DNA of 64,000 bases from an uncultured Myxococcales bacterium (lineage in GTDB: Bacteria; Myxococcota_A; Polyangia; Polyangiales; Polyangiaceae): NCBI GenBank assembly GCA_937872925.1, contig CALMUT010000129.1, positions 1-64,000 of the forward strand. Direction: 5' to 3'. Shown here one piece after another: positions 909-61,140 of the stretch; the stretch's first letter is position 1, and every line of letters begins with the position of its first letter. The notes under the pieces were generated by a model, which worked only from the letters and a program-made list of their open reading frames with translations, searched no databases and was not told the DNA's origin. The translations under genes and the position numbers were made by a program.

Positions 909-2032
909 CGCGGCGCCCCGCACTGCGTCAGCTTGCCCTTTTCGTTGATGCAACGCGGCGAAAACGTGTACGCGGCGTAGAGCCCCATGGTGCCCCAGCC
1001 AAACCGAAACGCGGTGTCACTGTTCGTGCGTTGGCGCGAGAACAACAGGCCAACGTGTGAACCGAATTGCCAGTGGTCCATCAGGTGCACGCCCATGTCG
1101 AAATGTGGCTCCAGCCAGGGGCCGGGAACGGGATTGCGCTCTAGCGGCTTCGGCGCCTCGTCGGCCGACAGCAGATAGCCACCGCTCGCGCCTAGGGCGA
1201 CGCGCAGTGGTCCCGCGTGCACCGCCCCTTCGGCCATCGCGCCCGGCGCAGCCAACACACCCACGTGCGTGAGCGCGAGCGGCACGGCAGCGCCGACGCG
1301 TAGCTCCCAATTCGGGCCACAAGGCTTCGAAATCAATGCGCGCGGGCGCAAGGCTTGCCCGAAGCGTGACTTGCCGTCGTCCTTCGGCGACAGCCACGCT
1401 TCCCAGCCCACTCCGAGCACGAAACCAGCCGCCGGGTATGCGTCGCACCAAGGCTCGTAGGTTTCGTCCGTGGCTTCGGCCAGCGGCATCGGATTATTGC
1501 CCTCGGGCAGTGGCATCGGGTTCTCTCGTTGGCCTGCGTCGCGCTCCCGCTGTGCGTCGCGCTCCCGCTGTGCGTCGCGCTCCCGCTGTGCGTCACGCTC
1601 CCGCTGCTCTTCGATGAGTCCCTCGCGTTCCGCGGCTTCACGCGCGGCGACCGCTGACTCCGCCGCCGCGATGTTTGCGAGCAGTGTACTCACACGCTGC
1701 CGGGTGGCGTCGTCCGCGGCGCAGTTGCGCACCTGTTGCATGAACCTCCGCGCTTCCGCGATGCGTTCATGGCTGATGGCGATCGGCACGTAGTCCTCGA
1801 AGGCCTTGGAGCGCGGGTCCAAGAAGTACGCGTCGCGGAACATCTTTAGCGCTGCGTCGACCTGTCCTGCGTCGCTGATCTCCCGTGCGCGCAGCACCAA
1901 GTTCGCTGCTCGCTCCGCTTCTGCTCTTGCAGGCTTTGCACTGGGGCACGCTGCCGCGAGCACCTGCGCGCTTCCATGCCCGCTAAACAGAGTCGCGAAT
2001 GCGAATACGCTGATGGCAGCGAAAAGCATCAT
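905..2032 (-). CDS. Secreted/outer-membrane protein with QRERDA repeats
   Basis: About 375 residues from the ATG at 2032, which precedes a good signal peptide (MMLFAAISVFAFATLFSGHG, cleavage near SAQ-VLA). The frame stays open to 2131, but the extra 33 residues are not signal-like. The segment after the signal (ERAANLVLRAREISDAGQVDAALKMF) reads as a TPR-like helical repeat. Residues about 141-165 are tandem QRERDA hexapeptides, probably coiled coil. The C-terminal 170 residues are rich in Gly, aromatics and alternating hydrophobics and end in YTFSPRC, suggesting a beta-barrel or outer-membrane-associated domain. Role unknown. It is divergent from the lipoprotein at 2155. Confidence 0.7.
   Translation of the reverse strand: MMLFAAISVFAFATLFSGHGSAQVLAAACPSAKPARAEAERAANLVLRAREISDAGQVDAALKMFRDAYFLDPRSKAFEDYVPIAISHERIAEARRFMQQVRNCAADDATRQRVSTLLANIAAAESAVAAREAAEREGLIEEQRERDAQRERDAQRERDAQRERDAGQRENPMPLPEGNNPMPLAEATDETYEPWCDAYPAAGFVLGVGWEAWLSPKDDGKSRFGQALRPRALISKPCGPNWELRVGAAVPLALTHVGVLAAPGAMAEGAVHAGPLRVALGASGGYLLSADEAPKPLERNPVPGPWLEPHFDMGVHLMDHWQFGSHVGLLFSRQRTNSDTAFRFGWGTMGLYAAYTFSPRCINEKGKLTQCGAPR
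1538..1612. repeat. 18-bp coding tandem repeat (QRERDA units)
   Basis: An 18-bp unit of the type TGCGTCGCGCTCCCGCTG is repeated four to five times in tandem. It encodes the minus-strand hexapeptide QRERDA in frame. The copies are nearly identical at DNA level, which suggests recent slippage or recombination. Confidence 0.75.
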
Positions 2033-15237: not shown

Positions 15238-16854
15238 TCATGGCTTTGATGAGTTCTGCAGCGCTCGCGAGGCGCTTGTCCGATCCGGCTTGCCGAGGCG
15301 GGTTCGGGGCAACTCACCGACGATGCAGTACACGCGCGGCAACTTGAAGCCGGCAAGTTCATGAGCCGCGGCACCCAGCACGGCTTCGGCATCCACGCCG
15401 GACTCGAGCACCAAGAGTGCCCCAACTCGCTGACCCCACTCCGCGTCAGGCACACCACAGACCAGGGCGTCGCGCACGCCGGTCGCTTGGCGCAGTGCGT
15501 TTTCGACCTCGAGGGGCTGCACGTTTTCTCCGCCCGTCACGATCACGTCGTCGCTGCGTCCCAGTACATAAAGCCGTCCTGAGTCGTCGGTGCTTCCCAG
15601 GTCGCCGGTATCGAACCAAGCGTTCGGCGCCAACTCGGCTTCTCCGACGTACCCACGCATGCGCATGGGGCCGCGCACCAAGATGGGCCCCGCTCTCGAT
15701 TTGTACCCACCCCGGGGTGGGTCACTTTGTCGGCGGGTTGCGCGGTGAGTTGCGTCATCGTCTTCGTCGCTTCCGCCAATGCGTACTTCCACGCCGCCGA
15801 GGGGAACCCCGGAGTCCGCGCCGCCGAGGGGAACCCCGGAGTCCGAGCCGCCGAGGGGAACCCCGGAGTCCACGCCTTGGGGAACCCCGGAGTCCGAGCC
15901 GCCGAGGGGAACCCCGGAGTCCGGGCCGCCGAGGGGAACCCCGGAGTCGGCGACGCCCCCGCCCGCGCTGCGTGGATCTTGCGCATCGCTTGGGCGTTGC
16001 GTCGTGATTTGTGATGCCATCTCCGTGCAGCCGTAGGTAGCGAGCACGCGCAGCTTGCGTGCGCGGGCTTCCTGTCGGAGCGCCGGGTCGAACGCCGCAC
16101 CGCCGACCAAGATCACGCGCAGCTGCGTTAGCGCCGCGCTGCGGGGATGCCGCATCAGGGTTGAGAGCATGGTCGGCACCACCGACAGCAGCGTCGCGCG
16201 CTTGGTCTCGATGGCGTGGAACACAGCGTCCGGGTCGAAGCTGGGCAAGACCACGATGGGCTTTCGTGCGACGAGACAGCGCGTCACGATCGACAGCCCA
16301 CCGACGTGCGCCAGGGGTATGCATAAGAGCCAGCGATCGTCGGCTTGAAAACCCAGGTGCGCATTGCTGGCAAGGGCGGCGGCGAGCAGCGCGTGATGAT
16401 CCAAGACGGCAAGCTTGGGCGCGCCACTCGTGCCCGATGTCGCGATCAACGCGGCAGGAGCGCCGCGATAGCCCGCGGCCAGCTTGATCAGCGCGTCCGC
16501 TTCCCTCGAAGTGAGCTTCGGGTGCAGTGGCAAGAACGTGCGCCTTGCTTCGAGAGCTGCGAGCACCTGGACGAGGGTCTCCAGTTCCGTCTGCACCCGG
16601 AAGTGCCATACGGCTTCGCCATCCGCCGCTTCGCCCCGCGCGGGCTCCGCCGAGCCGCGCCGAGCCACTCCGGGTGTGCCGTCGCCGCTGGGAACTACGC
16701 CGCCGCGCCGCGCCGTTGCCAGCGCGAGTTCCGCGAGCTCCGCGAACGGCAGCAGCCGCGGTCCGCTAACCAACGCGAGGCGATCCGGCGCTTCGAGGGC
16801 TGCTGCGTGCACGCTCAGGGACGCGACCGCGCCCGGACTCAGCTCGCCGTCCAT
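15238..16854 (-). CDS. menE: o-succinylbenzoate-CoA ligase MenE with repeat insertion
   Basis: 538 residues, longer than the usual 450-490. It activates o-succinylbenzoate with ATP and CoA to OSB-CoA in menaquinone synthesis. ANL-superfamily motifs are present: P-loop ALIATSGTSGAPKLA (near residue 135), VLATYGCTEMAS (near 270), WFDTGDLG, GRSDDVIVTGGENV and the catalytic C-terminal Lys in RTRLGKPDR. Between YGCTEMAS and the VRGP strand are two insertions. One is six copies of DSGVPLGG-x (residues about 302-354). The other is a charged stretch ending KSRAG (about 361-388). Both lie in a surface loop of the N-terminal domain, so activity may survive. The start at 16854 overlaps the end of menC by 16 bp. 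Last gene of the men operon. Confidence 0.9.
   Translation of the reverse strand: MDGELSPGAVASLSVHAAALEAPDRLALVSGPRLLPFAELAELALATARRGGVVPSGDGTPGVARRGSAEPARGEAADGEAVWHFRVQTELETLVQVLAALEARRTFLPLHPKLTSREADALIKLAAGYRGAPAALIATSGTSGAPKLAVLDHHALLAAALASNAHLGFQADDRWLLCIPLAHVGGLSIVTRCLVARKPIVVLPSFDPDAVFHAIETKRATLLSVVPTMLSTLMRHPRSAALTQLRVILVGGAAFDPALRQEARARKLRVLATYGCTEMASQITTQRPSDAQDPRSAGGGVADSGVPLGGPDSGVPLGGSDSGVPQGVDSGVPLGGSDSGVPLGGADSGVPLGGVEVRIGGSDEDDDATHRATRRQSDPPRGGYKSRAGPILVRGPMRMRGYVGEAELAPNAWFDTGDLGSTDDSGRLYVLGRSDDVIVTGGENVQPLEVENALRQATGVRDALVCGVPDAEWGQRVGALLVLESGVDAEAVLGAAAHELAGFKLPRVYCIVGELPRTRLGKPDRTSASRALQNSSKP
15705..15722. repeat. 18-bp perfect palindrome inside menE
   Basis: ACCCACCCCGGGGTGGGT is a perfect inverted repeat within the second, charged insertion of menE. 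It could form a hairpin in DNA or mRNA. It may mark a small inserted palindromic element. Confidence 0.7.
15794..15948. repeat. 27-bp coding tandem repeat inside menE (6 copies)
   Basis: Six tandem copies of a 27-bp unit (one copy 24 bp) encode DSGVPLGG plus one variable residue on the minus strand. The last copy runs straight into VEVRI, the conserved loop of acyl-CoA ligases. The unit therefore appears derived from the gene's own sequence. Confidence 0.85.
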
Positions 16855-17954
16855 AGCTCCTCACCGAGCGTGACGCCGTGGCCGTGCACCGCGGCAGCAT
16901 CGACTTGTAGAGCGTCGCCCACGGCCGCATCTGGCAGCTGGGGTACGCGCGCCGAAGGAAACGCGCTCAGGGCGCCGTGTAGGTCCAGTCCGGCTGCCTC
17001 TGCGGCGTCATTTTCAAGGGCGAGGGCCAGTTCGGCACATGCCGCCAGGGCGACCGGCCCCTCGAAGGCGTGCGTCACGATACAGCGTTTGCCGCCTCGC
17101 GCCGCGAGGGTTGCCAAGGACAGGCAGCGTGTCACACCGCCCAGCAACGTTGGTTTGAGCACCACGCCGCTGGCCGCGGACTTTTCGATGAGCGCGCCGC
17201 GCAGATCCGCTTGTAGCAGAGACTCATCCACAAACCATGGCACAGCGCACTCGCCGAGATCGAGCAGCGCTGCTCCGCGGGTCGGCTCTTCCACGAGCTC
17301 CAGTTCAGCGCGCTGGTAACACGCAAGCGCGTCGCGAGCGGCAGCGACGTCGAGACCGCCGTTGAGATCCAGGCGCAGCCGTAGCGGAGAACCACAGGCC
17401 CGGCGCACCTCGATCAGACGCGAGGCTTCGACGTCGGGATCGCGCCCGGTCGCTTTGAATTTCAAGTGGCGCGCGCCGCGTGCGACGGCACGCTCCGCTC
17501 GCTGCAAAATGTCTCCGTCGTCCAGGTGTCCCACCAGCACGCTACGCGGGCCACTAATCCGTGTGCCCAGCAACTGCCCCAGAGCGACGCCCCGCCGGCG
17601 CCCGAGGGCGTCGAGCAAGGCCGTCTCCAGCGCAAAGCGCGCGCTTGGGGAACTCAGCTCAAATTCGTCGCAGAGCCGCGCGACGTCCTCTGCGCTCTCC
17701 GGCAGCTCCCCCAGATGGCCCAGCGCTCGGAGTTCTTGCCGCGCGCCGTCGGCAGTGTCCGTTGCCCAGCTATCTCCCGCGGAGCGCGCGTCGGCTCCGA
17801 AGCCCGGCAGCGGCGAAGCTTCCCCCAGCCCAAGCAGAGTCTCCCCGTTGAAAAGTCCGGCGAGCAGTCCGTCTCGGCGCGTCCAACCGCTTTGCGCGCT
17901 GATGGCGCCCGATGTGGCGCCGCCGACGGCGATCACGCGCAGCGATAGTGGCAT
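16839..17954 (-). CDS. menC: o-succinylbenzoate synthase MenC
   Basis: 371 residues. It dehydrates SHCHC to o-succinylbenzoate. It belongs to the enolase superfamily and all catalytic positions are visible: KFK in HLKFKATG (catalytic Lys), metal ligands Asp in LRLDLNGG, Glu in LVEEPT and Asp in WFVDES, and the second Lys in VVLKPTLLGG. The N-terminal capping domain is Gly/Ala-rich. It lies between menA, 52 bp upstream, and menE, which it overlaps by 16 bp, fitting a single transcript. Confidence 0.92.
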   Translation of the reverse strand: MPLSLRVIAVGGATSGAISAQSGWTRRDGLLAGLFNGETLLGLGEASPLPGFGADARSAGDSWATDTADGARQELRALGHLGELPESAEDVARLCDEFELSSPSARFALETALLDALGRRRGVALGQLLGTRISGPRSVLVGHLDDGDILQRAERAVARGARHLKFKATGRDPDVEASRLIEVRRACGSPLRLRLDLNGGLDVAAARDALACYQRAELELVEEPTRGAALLDLGECAVPWFVDESLLQADLRGALIEKSAASGVVLKPTLLGGVTRCLSLATLAARGGKRCIVTHAFEGPVALAACAELALALENDAAEAAGLDLHGALSAFPSARVPQLPDAAVGDALQVDAAAVHGHGVTLGEELWTAS

Positions 17955-18006: not shown

Positions 18007-18966
<960 letters not shown>

Positions 18967-18984
18967 GCGAACGATGACGCGCGC

Positions 18985-19806
18985 TCAGGGCAGGCGCGGG
19001 AACTTGCCAAAGTTCGGTGGGCGCTTTTCCAAGAAAGCGTTCTTCCCTTCTTGACCCTCTTCGGTCATGTAGAAGAGCAACGTCGCGTTGCCCGCGAGCT
19101 CTTGCAGCCCCGCCTGACCGTCGCAATCCGCATTCAAGGAAGCCTTCAAGCATCGGAGCGCCAAGGGACTGTTCTGTAAGATCTCCCGGCACCATTGAAC
19201 AGTCTCGCTTTCGAGCTGCGCGAGCGGCACCACGCGATTGACCAAGCCCATGTCGAGGGCGTCCTGTGCCGAGTACTGTCGGCACAGAAACCAGATCTCG
19301 CGGGCCTTCTTCTGACCCACGATGCGGGCCATATAGGAAGCGCCGTAGCCGCCATCGAAGCTCCCGACTTTCGGGCCCGTTTGGCCGAAGCGCGCGTTGT
19401 CGGCGGCGATGGTCAAGTCGCAGACCAGGTGCAGCACGTGGCCGCCGCCAATGGCGTAGCCGGCGACCATGGCGATCACGGGCTTAGGCAAAGTGCGGAT
19501 CTGCCGCTGCAGGTCGAGCACGTTCAGGCGCGGCACCCCGTCGCCACCGACGTAGCCCGCATGTCCGCGGACGCGCTGGTCGCCACCGGAGCAGAACGCT
19601 TTGTCGCCGACGCCGCACAAGATGACGACGCCAACGTTGGCGTCGTCGCGTGCGTCTGCGAAGGCGTGGGTCATTTCCTTCACGGTCTGCGGGCGAAAGG
19701 CGTTGTGCACTTCCGGACGGTTGATGCTGATCTTCGCGATGCCTTCGGCCTTTTGGTACAGAATGTCTTCAAAGCCGGGAACGTTTTCATACTGGGGCAC
19801 GGTCAT
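18985..19806 (-). CDS. menB: 1,4-dihydroxy-2-naphthoyl-CoA synthase MenB
   Basis: 273 residues. Crotonase-fold enzyme that closes the naphthoquinone ring from OSB-CoA. MenB-specific features are [11 protein letters not shown] (oxyanion-hole region), [41 protein letters not shown] with the catalytic Asp, and the C-terminal [16 protein letters not shown] that reaches over the neighbouring subunit. Length is normal. The start overlaps the end of menH by 20 bp. Confidence 0.95.
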
Positions 19807-20599
19807 GGGTCTGCTCTCCTCGAGTCAGGCTGGGGTGGTGGGCGCGGGCCAAAATGCGCGCGAGTTGTTTGGGGGTCTCTAAAGTGAGGTTGTGTCCGGC
19901 ATCTGGGACCAAGTGCACGTATGCACCGGGGATCTGGCGCGCCGCCGCGTTGGCATGGGCGGCGTACTTGTTGTCGAGGCCGCCAGCGACGAAGTGCAGC
20001 GGGACACGCCCGACAGCGAGGCGCGCCGCCAGTTCGGGCATCTCGCCACTGCCGAGTTCGACCAGGGCCCGCGCGATGTTGAGGGCGTCGTGCCCCAGGC
20101 GCTGCGCGCGCTGGGTGCTGAGGGTTTCCCTGTCGAGGCGAGTCTGACTCGCAAAGAGGGGCAGGGCCTCGAATTGATCGACAAACTCCACCAAGCCACG
20201 GCGCAGCAATACGTCCAGCTGCGCGCGTTCCCAGAGCATGCGCTCGTTGCGCGCCGTCACGTCGAGGCCCGTGTGGGCGCTCACCGCCGTCAACGCTAGG
20301 AGCCGATCAGGAGTAAAAGCTGCGAGCCCAAGGGCCAGACGCCCGCCCATGGAATAGCCCACGACGTGGCTGGGCTGTGGGATGCGCGCTGCAAGGGCGC
20401 GCACATTGGCTTCGAAGCCGTCGGCCACGGGCAGCGCGGGCCGTCCATGTCCGGGCAGGGGCAGCGCCCACACGGCCCCCGGGTAGTCGAGCTCGGCGAC
20501 GACTGCGCGCCATGCCTCGGGCGCCCCGAGCATGCCGTGCAACAGCACCATGGGCGCAGCGCTGTTGTCCTGCGCAGCACGCAGCAGCGTCGCGTTCAT
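19787..20599 (-). CDS. menH: SHCHC synthase MenH-like alpha/beta hydrolase
   Basis: 270 residues. In the menaquinone pathway MenH eliminates pyruvate from SEPHCHC to give SHCHC. The alpha/beta-hydrolase triad is visible: Ser in VVGYSMGGR (near residue 84), Asp in VAGGLDNKY and His in VPDAGHNL. The oxyanion segment is [12 protein letters not shown]. The MenH assignment rests on position between menD and menB as much as on sequence, because the fold is widespread. It overlaps menD by 4 bp and menB by 20 bp. Confidence 0.88.
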
Positions 20600-22386
20600 G
20601 GCGCACCGCCGGCATTGGGAACGGCCCCTTGAGTCGCGCGCGTCCCTTGAGCCGCATCCCGCGCGCGTACTTCTTGGGTCGCCTCCGCCCTGGGGCAGAC
20701 TTCGATCACGCTGGCGCGGGGTGTGTGCAGCGCGCCGTGGAGCGCATCACTCAGTGCCTGCGCCGTGTCCGCGCGCGCGTGTGAGATCTGAAACGCAGCG
20801 CATGCGCCCGCGAGAAACTCTGTAGGCGGCGTGAGGAACAAGCGTTCCAAATTCGTCGCCGAAATCTGGGCGGCGATGGGCAGCTGCTCGAAGATGCGCC
20901 CGCCGCCGTTGTTCACCACGACGATCAAAAGCGGCGCGCTGGCGTTTGCGGCCAGGGCCAAAGAGCCTACGTCGTGCAGCGCGCTCACGTCGCCCAGCAG
21001 CACGACGACGGCGCGACTTGCGTCGACCACCGAACGCGCCCCGGCCGCTCCGGCGATCAGTCCGTCAATGCCACTGACGCCGCGTTGGTGCAGCACAGAG
21101 AGCGACTGGTTGCGGCGTCCGCCATAGCGTTCGACGTCGCGGACGACTTGGCTATTGCCGACCAAAAGCGTCGCGCCGGCGGGTAGCGCTGCGACGACGG
21201 TGTGCGCGATGGCCGGCTCCGACAGTGCGTCGCCGCTGAGCGGTGTGTCGGCGGTGGTGGCCAACGCGAGCACGTGCTCGCGATAGGCGGCATCCCGCGG
21301 GCGTCCGGCGAGGCGTTCGCTCAGGCTGCCGAGCAGCTCCGTGGCGTCACACACCACGGCGTCGGTTGTCGCAGCGCTTGGGTCGACGATATCGTGAGGT
21401 GCAACGGCGATCACCGTGGCGGGGGCCTGCGCGCGGGCGATTCGCGGCCAAGCGGCAGACGTCGGGGGTGCGCCCAAGCACAGCACGACGTCCGGTGGCC
21501 GGCTTTCGAAGAGCGCCACCAACCATGCGTCGAGGGCACCGGCACACAGCCCGCTCAGCTCCGGACCGTGGAGCACGTCGCTGGCTGCTTCCGCGCCGCA
21601 CGCGAAGCCCGACGTGCGCAGGAAGTCCGCCAAAGCCTGACGCAATGCGGGCGCGGATTTGTCTCGCGCTTGGCCTGCGTTGCCCCACGCCGGTCCGACC
21701 AGCACGAGGCCACGGCGCGCAGACGCACACAGCTGCGTGACGCGTTCCAGCGCATCGACGGACGGCAAGACGCGCCCGGCAAAAGCGCGCGGCGCGCCGC
21801 GCTGATCACAGCGCTGCAACTCGCCACGCCACGGTTCGTCACCCGCGCTAGCGACGGGTTCGAGTGGTTTGCGGAAGCGCGCGTTGACGTGCACGGGGCC
21901 GGGCACTGGAAACTGCGCACGCAGCACGGCTTGTGCGGCAATGCGCGGCACGGCGCGCAGCGCTGCCGGATCGGGCTCGCCCAGCTCAAAGTAGGCACGC
22001 ACGTGGCCGCCGAAGAGCTTGGTTTGGTCCACGGTTTGGTTTTCGTGCGCTTGGGTCAGCTCCCAGGGGCGATCCGCGGTCAGCGCGATCAGGGGTAGGA
22101 GCGCGCGTTCGGCTTCAAGCACCGCGGGAAAGTAGTGCGCGCCCGCGCTGCCTGAGGTGCACAACAGCACACTGGGCCGGCCGGTGACGCGCGCTTGGCC
22201 CAGGGCGAAGAACGCCGCACCGCGCTCGTCGATGCAGGTGCTCACCTGCATGCCGTCGGTTGCGTCGGCGGCCAGGGCCAAAGGTGTGGAGCGAGAACCG
22301 GGACTGAGCACGACGTGTTCCACGCCAGAGGCGTGAAGCGCGCGCATGAACAACCGCGCCCACTCGCTGTGCAGATCTCCGTTCAC
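20596..22386 (-). CDS. menD: SEPHCHC synthase MenD
   Basis: 596 residues. Thiamine-diphosphate enzyme that joins 2-oxoglutarate to isochorismate. The N-terminal half starts with HVVLSPGSRSTPLALAA and has the cofactor-activating Glu in CIDERGAAFFALG. The C-terminal half carries the ThDP/Mg motif GDVSALHDVGSLALAA followed by VVVNNGGGRIFEQLP. It follows menF with a 4-bp overlap and precedes menH with a 4-bp overlap, so translation is coupled along the operon. Confidence 0.95.
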   Translation of the reverse strand: MNGDLHSEWARLFMRALHASGVEHVVLSPGSRSTPLALAADATDGMQVSTCIDERGAAFFALGQARVTGRPSVLLCTSGSAGAHYFPAVLEAERALLPLIALTADRPWELTQAHENQTVDQTKLFGGHVRAYFELGEPDPAALRAVPRIAAQAVLRAQFPVPGPVHVNARFRKPLEPVASAGDEPWRGELQRCDQRGAPRAFAGRVLPSVDALERVTQLCASARRGLVLVGPAWGNAGQARDKSAPALRQALADFLRTSGFACGAEAASDVLHGPELSGLCAGALDAWLVALFESRPPDVVLCLGAPPTSAAWPRIARAQAPATVIAVAPHDIVDPSAATTDAVVCDATELLGSLSERLAGRPRDAAYREHVLALATTADTPLSGDALSEPAIAHTVVAALPAGATLLVGNSQVVRDVERYGGRRNQSLSVLHQRGVSGIDGLIAGAAGARSVVDASRAVVVLLGDVSALHDVGSLALAANASAPLLIVVVNNGGGRIFEQLPIAAQISATNLERLFLTPPTEFLAGACAAFQISHARADTAQALSDALHGALHTPRASVIEVCPRAEATQEVRARDAAQGTRATQGAVPNAGGAP

Positions 22387-23741
22387 GCGACGCCGTCCAG
22401 GTGCAGCGGCGCCGGCGCAGGATCGGGAACGACGCCCAGCGTGCCGCGCATACTGGCCAACTTGGCCTCGGTTTCGGCTAGCTCAAACTCAACTTCGGAG
22501 CCCCGCACCAGTCCCGCGCCCGCAAATAGATGCGCGCCGCCCGGCACGAGCAACGCCGAGCGCAACGCCACGGCAAACTGTCCACGCCCTTGCGCGTCGA
22601 ACCAGCCCACAGGTGCCGCGAACCAGCCGCGATCGAAGCGCTCGTTTGCAAGCAAGAACGAGAGTGCTTCTCGACGCGGTACGCCGCAGACCGCAGGCGT
22701 TGGGTGCAGCGCATCGACCCAGTCGAGCACGTGGCTGTCCGGAGCGCTGGCGACGATGGGCGTGGCCAAATGGTGCACGTGTCGCAAGGTGCGCACATGT
22801 CGCTCTGCTTGTGACACGATGCGCGCGCCGGCATTGGCGAGGGCGGTCTCGATGGCGCGTACGACGTAGCGGTGCTCGCGCTCGTCTTTGTCTGACGCGA
22901 GTAGCGCGTCGATCTCTTGGGCGTCGTTACCACGGCGGGGCAGCGTTCCAGCGACGGCTTCGCTGCGTAGCGCCTGACCGTCGAAGGCCACGAGTAGCTC
23001 GGGGCTGGCGCCAACGAAGGTGTGCGTGCCTGCGCTAATGGCAAAGTGTGCCGCTGCGGTTTCTGCGGAAAGACGGCGCAAAGTCGCCGCAACAGAAACC
23101 TGTCCGGATGCTCGGGCCGCGCGCACCACAACGACCTTTTCCAGTGCACCCTGTGCAATTTGCTCTAGCGCCGCCCTTGCCGCCGCGCAGTATTCCGGTG
23201 CGCCGCTCGCTTCGAGGCAAAGAGGGCTCGTGACGCGATTGGCTTGCAACTGATTGGCAAACACCGCGTGCGCTTCGGCCTGCAGCAGCCGTGGGATCTC
23301 GAGTTCCGTGCGGGATACGACCAGCTCCGCGCGCACAGAATTGCCGGAGCGCACGAAGGACCAGCGTGGCAACACGAAACGCGCGTCGCCGAAGTGGTGG
23401 AATACGCCCAAGCGTCCCGGCGCGAAGGAAAGCCCGCCGAGTAGCCGCGGGGCGGCGCTGCCCACGACCTCTAGGTCTGCGAACAGCTCGCATGCGCTCT
23501 GCCGCACGGTAGCGATGGCGTCGGCGCCTTCCGCTTTCAACAGCGCGGCGCAGCCAAAAGCCACCATGGGAGAGCCCAGGGCACCCATGCCTTCGTCGCT
23601 GTTCCAGAAGAACAGCTCGCGCTCGTCGCTGAGCTGCGTGAAGGGATCCAGGTCGACCTCGCCACCAATGGCGAAAAGGCGCGCTGTGGCGCCATGAGTC
23701 GCGCGGTGCGTCGCTTCCGCCAGTGCGGCTTCGAACTTCAT
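22383..23741 (-). CDS. menF: Isochorismate synthase MenF
   Basis: 452 residues from the ATG at 23741. This ATG overlaps the menG stop as ATGA; the frame is open further to 23903 but that part is antisense to and shadowed by menG. It converts chorismate to isochorismate, the committed step. The chorismate-binding domain is recognised from FVGASPELLVAF, SEAVAGTLPRRG, LHPTPAVCGVPR and AGAGLVRGSEVEFELAETEAK, containing the Glu residues that bind Mg2+. The N-terminal 120 residues are variable, as in the family. Confidence 0.93.
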   Translation of the reverse strand: MKFEAALAEATHRATHGATARLFAIGGEVDLDPFTQLSDERELFFWNSDEGMGALGSPMVAFGCAALLKAEGADAIATVRQSACELFADLEVVGSAAPRLLGGLSFAPGRLGVFHHFGDARFVLPRWSFVRSGNSVRAELVVSRTELEIPRLLQAEAHAVFANQLQANRVTSPLCLEASGAPEYCAAARAALEQIAQGALEKVVVVRAARASGQVSVAATLRRLSAETAAAHFAISAGTHTFVGASPELLVAFDGQALRSEAVAGTLPRRGNDAQEIDALLASDKDEREHRYVVRAIETALANAGARIVSQAERHVRTLRHVHHLATPIVASAPDSHVLDWVDALHPTPAVCGVPRREALSFLLANERFDRGWFAAPVGWFDAQGRGQFAVALRSALLVPGGAHLFAGAGLVRGSEVEFELAETEAKLASMRGTLGVVPDPAPAPLHLDGVA

Positions 23742-24451
23742 GGCGCCGTGCCCACAAAGAGGTTCGCCGCGCCGAAGGTAAGAGCGGTAGCCTCGACGTT
23801 GATCAGTCCGACGTCCTGCATCATCTGTCGGAACTCGGCGCGGGGCGGGAACGCCGCGATCGACGACTGCAAGTAGCGGTACTCGCGGTTGCCGGAGAGC
23901 CACCCGCCGACTGCGGGCACCACCGTGCGGATGTGAAAGCGTGCCAAGCCGCGCAGGAGTCCCTCTTCCGGTTCGCCCAACTCCAAGATTGCCAAGCGTC
24001 CGCCGGGGCGCGTCACCCTTGCCATTTCCCCGAGACCTTTGGCGCGGTCGACGGCGTTGCGGATCCCGAAGGCGATGGTCACGCCGTCGAAGCTCGCGTC
24101 GTCGTAGGGCAGGGCCTCGACAGTTCCCGTATCAAAGTGCACGCGGTCACTGAATCCGGCGCGCTCGACCTTCTGCGTGCCAATGGCCAGCATCTTGCGC
24201 GAAGGATCGATGCCAACCACTTGGCTTTCGGGCAGTTTGCGCGCGATGCCCAGGGCGAGGTCCGCCGTGCCCGTTGCTACGTCCAGCACGCGACAGGCAC
24301 CCGAGAGCTGCAGTGCCGCGACGGTCTTGCGACGCCAACCCTGGTCGATGCCGAGGGACAGCACACGATTCAAGAAGTCATAGCGCTCGGCAATGCCATC
24401 GAACATCTGCCCACTGCCGGGGCGCACGGGTGCGGGCGCTGCGTTGTTCAT
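23738..24451 (-). CDS. menG: Demethylmenaquinone methyltransferase MenG/UbiE
   Basis: 237 residues. Class I SAM methyltransferase performing the last step, methylation of demethylmenaquinone. Motifs: MFDGIAERYDFLNRVLSLGIDQGWRR at the N terminus (UbiE signature), SAM loop VLDVATGTADLALG, VTIAFGIRNAVDRAKGLGEMARVTRPGGRL, and SIAAFPPRAEFRQMM near the end. It lies between the DAHP synthase and menF with 4-bp overlaps on both sides. As the window has no ubiquinone genes, menG is the better name than ubiE. Confidence 0.93.
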   Translation of the reverse strand: MNNAAPAPVRPGSGQMFDGIAERYDFLNRVLSLGIDQGWRRKTVAALQLSGACRVLDVATGTADLALGIARKLPESQVVGIDPSRKMLAIGTQKVERAGFSDRVHFDTGTVEALPYDDASFDGVTIAFGIRNAVDRAKGLGEMARVTRPGGRLAILELGEPEEGLLRGLARFHIRTVVPAVGGWLSGNREYRYLQSSIAAFPPRAEFRQMMQDVGLINVEATALTFGAANLFVGTAP

Positions 24452-61037: not shown

Positions 61038-61140
61038 TCTCGCGCGGGATTTGCCCCCGCGCCCCCTGTTTCGCGCGGGACCTGCTCCCCGCGCCCCCTC
61101 TTTCGCGCGGGATCTGCTCCCCGCGCCCCCTGTTTCGCAC
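61038..61140. repeat. 32-bp tandem repeat, three copies
   Basis: Three copies of a 31-32 bp unit (start TTTCGCGCGGGATCTGCTCC, end CCGCGCCCCCTG) plus the first 6 bp of a fourth. It sits between the palindrome and the TetR gene. Each unit has complementary CGCGCGGG/CCCCGCG halves and may form a hairpin. No gene lies here. Confidence 0.8.

Follow-up and report, generated by a model that had tools for sequence, protein, structure and literature searches.

A coding minisatellite apparently grown from the conserved motif of MenE itself in an uncultured Myxococcales bacterium

The menE gene studied here carries, directly ahead of the VEVRI strand of its product, six in-frame, head-to-tail units. We read them, at a probability of about 0.83, as a lineage-specific coding minisatellite in which 27 bp of the enzyme's own motif were amplified, unit 6 being the native copy and the other units a tolerated surface loop. 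If so, a protein loop would have been caught while being built from a conserved motif of the enzyme that houses it, with the ancestral copy still identifiable, and it would have grown within the body of a biosynthetic enzyme rather than in a linker. It would also offer a clean natural case for studying the number of additional loop residues that an adenylate-forming enzyme can bear, and the pace of change in such coding repeats. Coordinates (Table 1) refer to the window, i.e. the whole stretch of 64,000 nt that was analysed.

Table 1. Positions of menE, its repeat units, flanking elements and the neighbouring men genes in the window
Feature	Position	Strand	Remarks
menE (o-succinylbenzoate--CoA ligase)	15238..16854	minus	538 aa, ATG start
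Unit 1	15948-15922	minus	DSGVPLGG-P, 27 bp
Unit 2	15921-15895	minus	DSGVPLGG-S, 27 bp
Unit 3	15894-15871	minus	DSGVPQGV, 24 bp, sole degenerate unit
Unit 4	15870-15844	minus	DSGVPLGG-S, DNA identical to unit 2
Unit 5	15843-15817	minus	DSGVPLGG-A, 27 bp
Unit 6	15816-15793	minus	DSGVPLGG, at native position; profile of 22 relatives resumes here
VEVRI strand	15792-15778	minus	directly after unit 6, as after the native motif
Second insertion, ~26 residues (GGSDEDDDATHRATRRQSDPPRGGYK)	15700..15777	minus	acidic then basic; 26-residue gap in profile alignment after VEVRI
menC (o-succinylbenzoate synthase)	16839..17954	minus	overlaps menE start; NCBIfam profile, adjoins menE in relatives
menA, menB, menH, menD, menF	18007..23903	minus	upstream of menE, same orientation

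Matches to Pfam AMP-binding and AMP-binding_C in the menE product were both over cut-off, the best PDB match was B. subtilis MenE (5buq) and the best NCBIfam match was TIGR01923 (9.4e-76, 255 bits, in two stretches). The protein resembles these MenE references in domain order, catalytic motifs and gene neighbourhood, but differs from them by a repeat insert of ~48 residues before VEVRI and another of ~26 residues after it, and scores below the curated TIGR01923 cut-off of 330 bits. Sequence and alignments revealed P-loop TSGTSG, YGCTE, TGDLG, GRSDD, GGEN and the C-terminal GK, so that the motifs by which adenylate-forming enzymes are recognised (P-loop, YGxTE, TGD, GGEN and C-terminal Lys) are all present. 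Thus the motifs for adenylation and thioesterification are all in place and the enzyme is, as judged from its motifs, intact apart from the array; catalytic activity would be retained. The N-terminal region of MenE (window 16600-16720) has an additional Arg/Ala/Gly-rich stretch, GTPGVARRGSAEPARGEAADGEA, which the aligned homologues lack.

The gene is the last in the order menF-menD-menH-menB-menA-menC-menE. Four of these genes (menA, menB, menC and menH) were named by NCBIfam profile, menC and menH scoring below their cut-offs, while menD and menF were named by reading the ORFs. By its gene content this group is a classical and complete menaquinone cluster, and its context is shared with relatives: matches to menC, menA, menB and menH adjoin menE here, and menC adjoins menE in most relatives. 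Since no gene for MqnA/D of the alternative futalosine pathway was found in the genome, MenE is probably in use by the host, for which menE may be essential, although the same genome encodes further acyl-CoA ligases.

The array (15793-15948, residues 303-354 of MenE) has unit spacings of 27, 27, 24, 27 and 27 bp, all offsets being 0 mod 3. Five units are exact at the protein level (DSGVPLGG, then P, S, S, A or V). The original prediction of six DSGVPLGG-x copies before VEVRI was right as to place, number of units and the run into VEVRI, but not as to uniformity, as unit 3 is shortened and altered; its end, GGCGTGGA, resembles the passage from unit 6 into VEVRI. That the copies are nearly identical at the DNA level was borne out: units 1, 2, 4 and 5 differ at a single base, the first of codon 9 (CCG, TCG, TCG and GCG, respectively). 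Tandem Repeats Finder (TRF) scored the array 282 at period 78 (97%) and 256 at period 27, making it the top-scoring tandem array of the window. It is thus head-to-tail, with a period that is a multiple of 3 and near-identical DNA, as is typical of an in-frame coding minisatellite.

Could an error of assembly or sequencing have made the copy number too high or too low? The assembly is fragmented (377 contigs) and the array, at ~156 bp, is near short-read length, so the true copy number could differ. However, the codon 9 differences and the altered unit 3 serve as anchors, the reading frame is unbroken across the array and the domain downstream of it matches the profile, which makes such an error highly improbable.

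The units share not only their amino acids but also their codons. TCC, GGG and GTT are used in all six, and these are minority codons of menE, where they account elsewhere for 2/29 Ser, 6/47 Gly and 3/41 Val, respectively. With menE's own codon usage, the chance of five further copies repeating the D-S-G-V-P codons is ~1.6e-19. The minority codons common to all units show that the similarity is due to copying of DNA and not to convergent selection. This bears on a different explanation, in which the array would be a functional loop favoured by selection, e.g. a partner-binding or regulatory segment tethering MenE to other Men enzymes, with its length under selection. The five exact protein copies, and the acidic, proline- and glycine-rich character of a repeat lying inside the catalytic domain, would suit such a role, but DNA identity in minority codons speaks of recent copying rather than protein-level conservation and the array is absent from all relatives examined; we regard this explanation as very unlikely.

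A search of the 9.39 Mb genome with the 16-mer unit core GACTCCGGGGTTCCCC returned six sites in the array and none elsewhere, the reversed pattern used as control gave no matches, and the core was absent from 58 relatives. A comparison with 183 genomes of the order brought up no counterpart array, the best matches being short GC-rich ones or an unrelated GADPTGVG-type array, none of them in a MenE frame; an array shared at the DNA level within the order was therefore rejected. Since the core is confined to menE in this genome and absent from the 58 relatives, and the array has no counterpart in those 183 genomes, it was not imported as a dispersed repeat or inserted as a mobile palindromic element. 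A perfect 18-bp palindrome, ACCCACCCCGGGGTGGGT, lies in menE ~70 bp from the array (window 15705-15722); as it has a single site in the genome, it was rejected as a repeated element.

MenE orthologues were collected from the same family and order, many of them from two independent searches that placed menE beside menC. The adjacency of menC and menE in most relatives supports their assignment as MenE orthologues. All 25 distinct relatives read, most of them encoded next to menC, carry a single G-x-G-x-PL-x-G-x-(E)VRI-like segment at the place of the array, after YGxTE and before the next strand. This agrees with the expectation that other MenE proteins hold one segment here, and relatives that match the copy number but have diverged units, which would have pointed to an old and stable domain, were not seen among these 25. 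DSG-x-PLPG-x-EVRI was read in two family members, and a member of another family of the order has DSGHPLAGVEVTI. In the two family members closest by sequence, G014 and G115, the segments are LDSGHPLPGAEVRI and LDSGPPLPGVEVRI, respectively. They read DSGHPLPGAEVRI in G014 and DSGPPLPGVEVRI in G115, which identifies the unit, at the level of sequence, as MenE's own conserved motif. When MenE was compared with a profile made from 22 relatives, the match ran up to residue ~298, broke off for ~48 residues and was taken up again precisely at unit 6, DSGVPLGGVEVRI, so that the native copy is the one adjoining VEVRI. Together with the single segment in relatives, this argues that the array expands the enzyme's own motif, and the single segment supports an expansion specific to this lineage. 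The duplicated segment had been described as a functional enzyme loop; conserved it is, but none of the known catalytic motifs, all of them intact, falls within it.

The identity of the units alone suggests that the expansion is apparently recent, as had been claimed, though the support is indirect, the nearest MenE being ~50-55% identical to the array-bearing protein. No same-species or near relative was found for a comparison of copy number; the only MenE from the same genus, that of genome G001, is distant (34-42% identical) and has one GSGSPLPGVAVRL.

In the reading we prefer, the 27 bp that code for the DSG-x-PL-x-G-(V)EVRI segment, located past the YGxTE motif and ahead of the following beta strand, would have multiplied head-to-tail through replication slippage, unequal homologous recombination or both. 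Three units may have formed first, the 78-bp three-unit block being doubled afterwards, a history made plausible by the 97% fit of the 78-bp period and by the likeness of the unit 3 end to the point where unit 6 meets VEVRI. A hairpin explaining slippage was not found: single-strand folding of both DNA strands was no better than that of shuffles (z ~+2), and hairpin-driven slippage was rejected. Unit 6, beside VEVRI, would keep the ancestral structural role, while the remaining units would form a flexible Gly/Asp/Ser/Pro-rich surface loop, looped out and tolerated by the otherwise intact enzyme as a near-neutral addition. Modelling had been suggested as a check on this looping out. The AF2 model gave the array no structure (pLDDT ~23-30), which is compatible with an array looped out of the fold, but the model was poor as a whole (mean pLDDT 52, 4-row alignment). 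The second insertion flanks the same VEVRI strand, which suggests that the area around VEVRI may lie at the protein surface and admit additional sequence.

Similar arrays are known from E. coli tolA and from L. pneumophila genes (PMC3477136, PMC2639597), which are likewise intragenic and head-to-tail with near-identical units of a multiple of 3 bp, and in which change of copy number is expected by recombination or slippage. In E. coli tolA, the in-frame array contracts by a RecA-dependent route at a rate of 6.9e-5 (PMC3477136), from which a variable copy number of the menE array, as originally proposed, is a reasonable expectation. The tolA array, however, lies in a long helical connector (PMC3477136), whereas that of menE interrupts a biosynthetic enzyme within its catalytic domain and would have been copied from the enzyme's own conserved motif. 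Short in-frame repeats within an enzyme are also found in ahpC, where a change from 4 to 5 TCT units alters enzyme activity, and in mutL, where 6-bp units switch function (PMC3477136, PMC2955026). In those genes the units are of 3 or 6 bp and the effect of one unit more or less was shown by experiment, while menE has a 27-bp unit, with the native unit 6 intact.

These precedents of in-frame repeats altering protein function in ahpC, mutL and tolA (PMC3477136, PMC2955026), and the high identity of the units, which makes recombination likely, are what would favour menE as a contingency locus, in which frequent changes of copy number tune or switch MenE activity, and hence the menaquinone supply, in the population. 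We consider this quite unlikely, since a unit length that is a multiple of three would give graded changes and no on/off switch, and unit 6 by itself accounts for the match to the profile, so that the five others appear dispensable. Equally doubtful is the array as a hypermutable length tuner, where recombination would shift the number of motif copies in the catalytic domain and menaquinone synthesis would vary between cells. Many similar in-frame arrays of these genomes lie in linkers, which also speaks against a contingency locus and for a general proneness to repeats. In a partial census covering 637 kb of the genome and the window, with ORFs picked mechanically, TRF found ~16-28 arrays per 100 kb in the genome sample, the window, G001 and G014. 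In-frame arrays are thus common in these genomes, and those read were mostly Gly/Ser/Pro/Ala-rich linkers or tails; among 20 array proteins scanned with Pfam, none had an array splitting an enzyme domain. The menE array is therefore of a known kind, a coding minisatellite, and is unusual by its place and not by its kind.

Other arrays were noted along the way. At window 1535-1606, four copies of an 18-bp unit (98%) encode RERDAQ repeats in a minus-strand ORF. The array at 61040-61138 (32-bp unit, 3.1 copies, 91%) is probably non-coding, since its period is not a multiple of three. In G014, a related 51-bp tandem unit of GGACAC/GTGTCC type is present at L115 9842-10326 and L119 17250-17388, and is possibly a dispersed intergenic repeat family.
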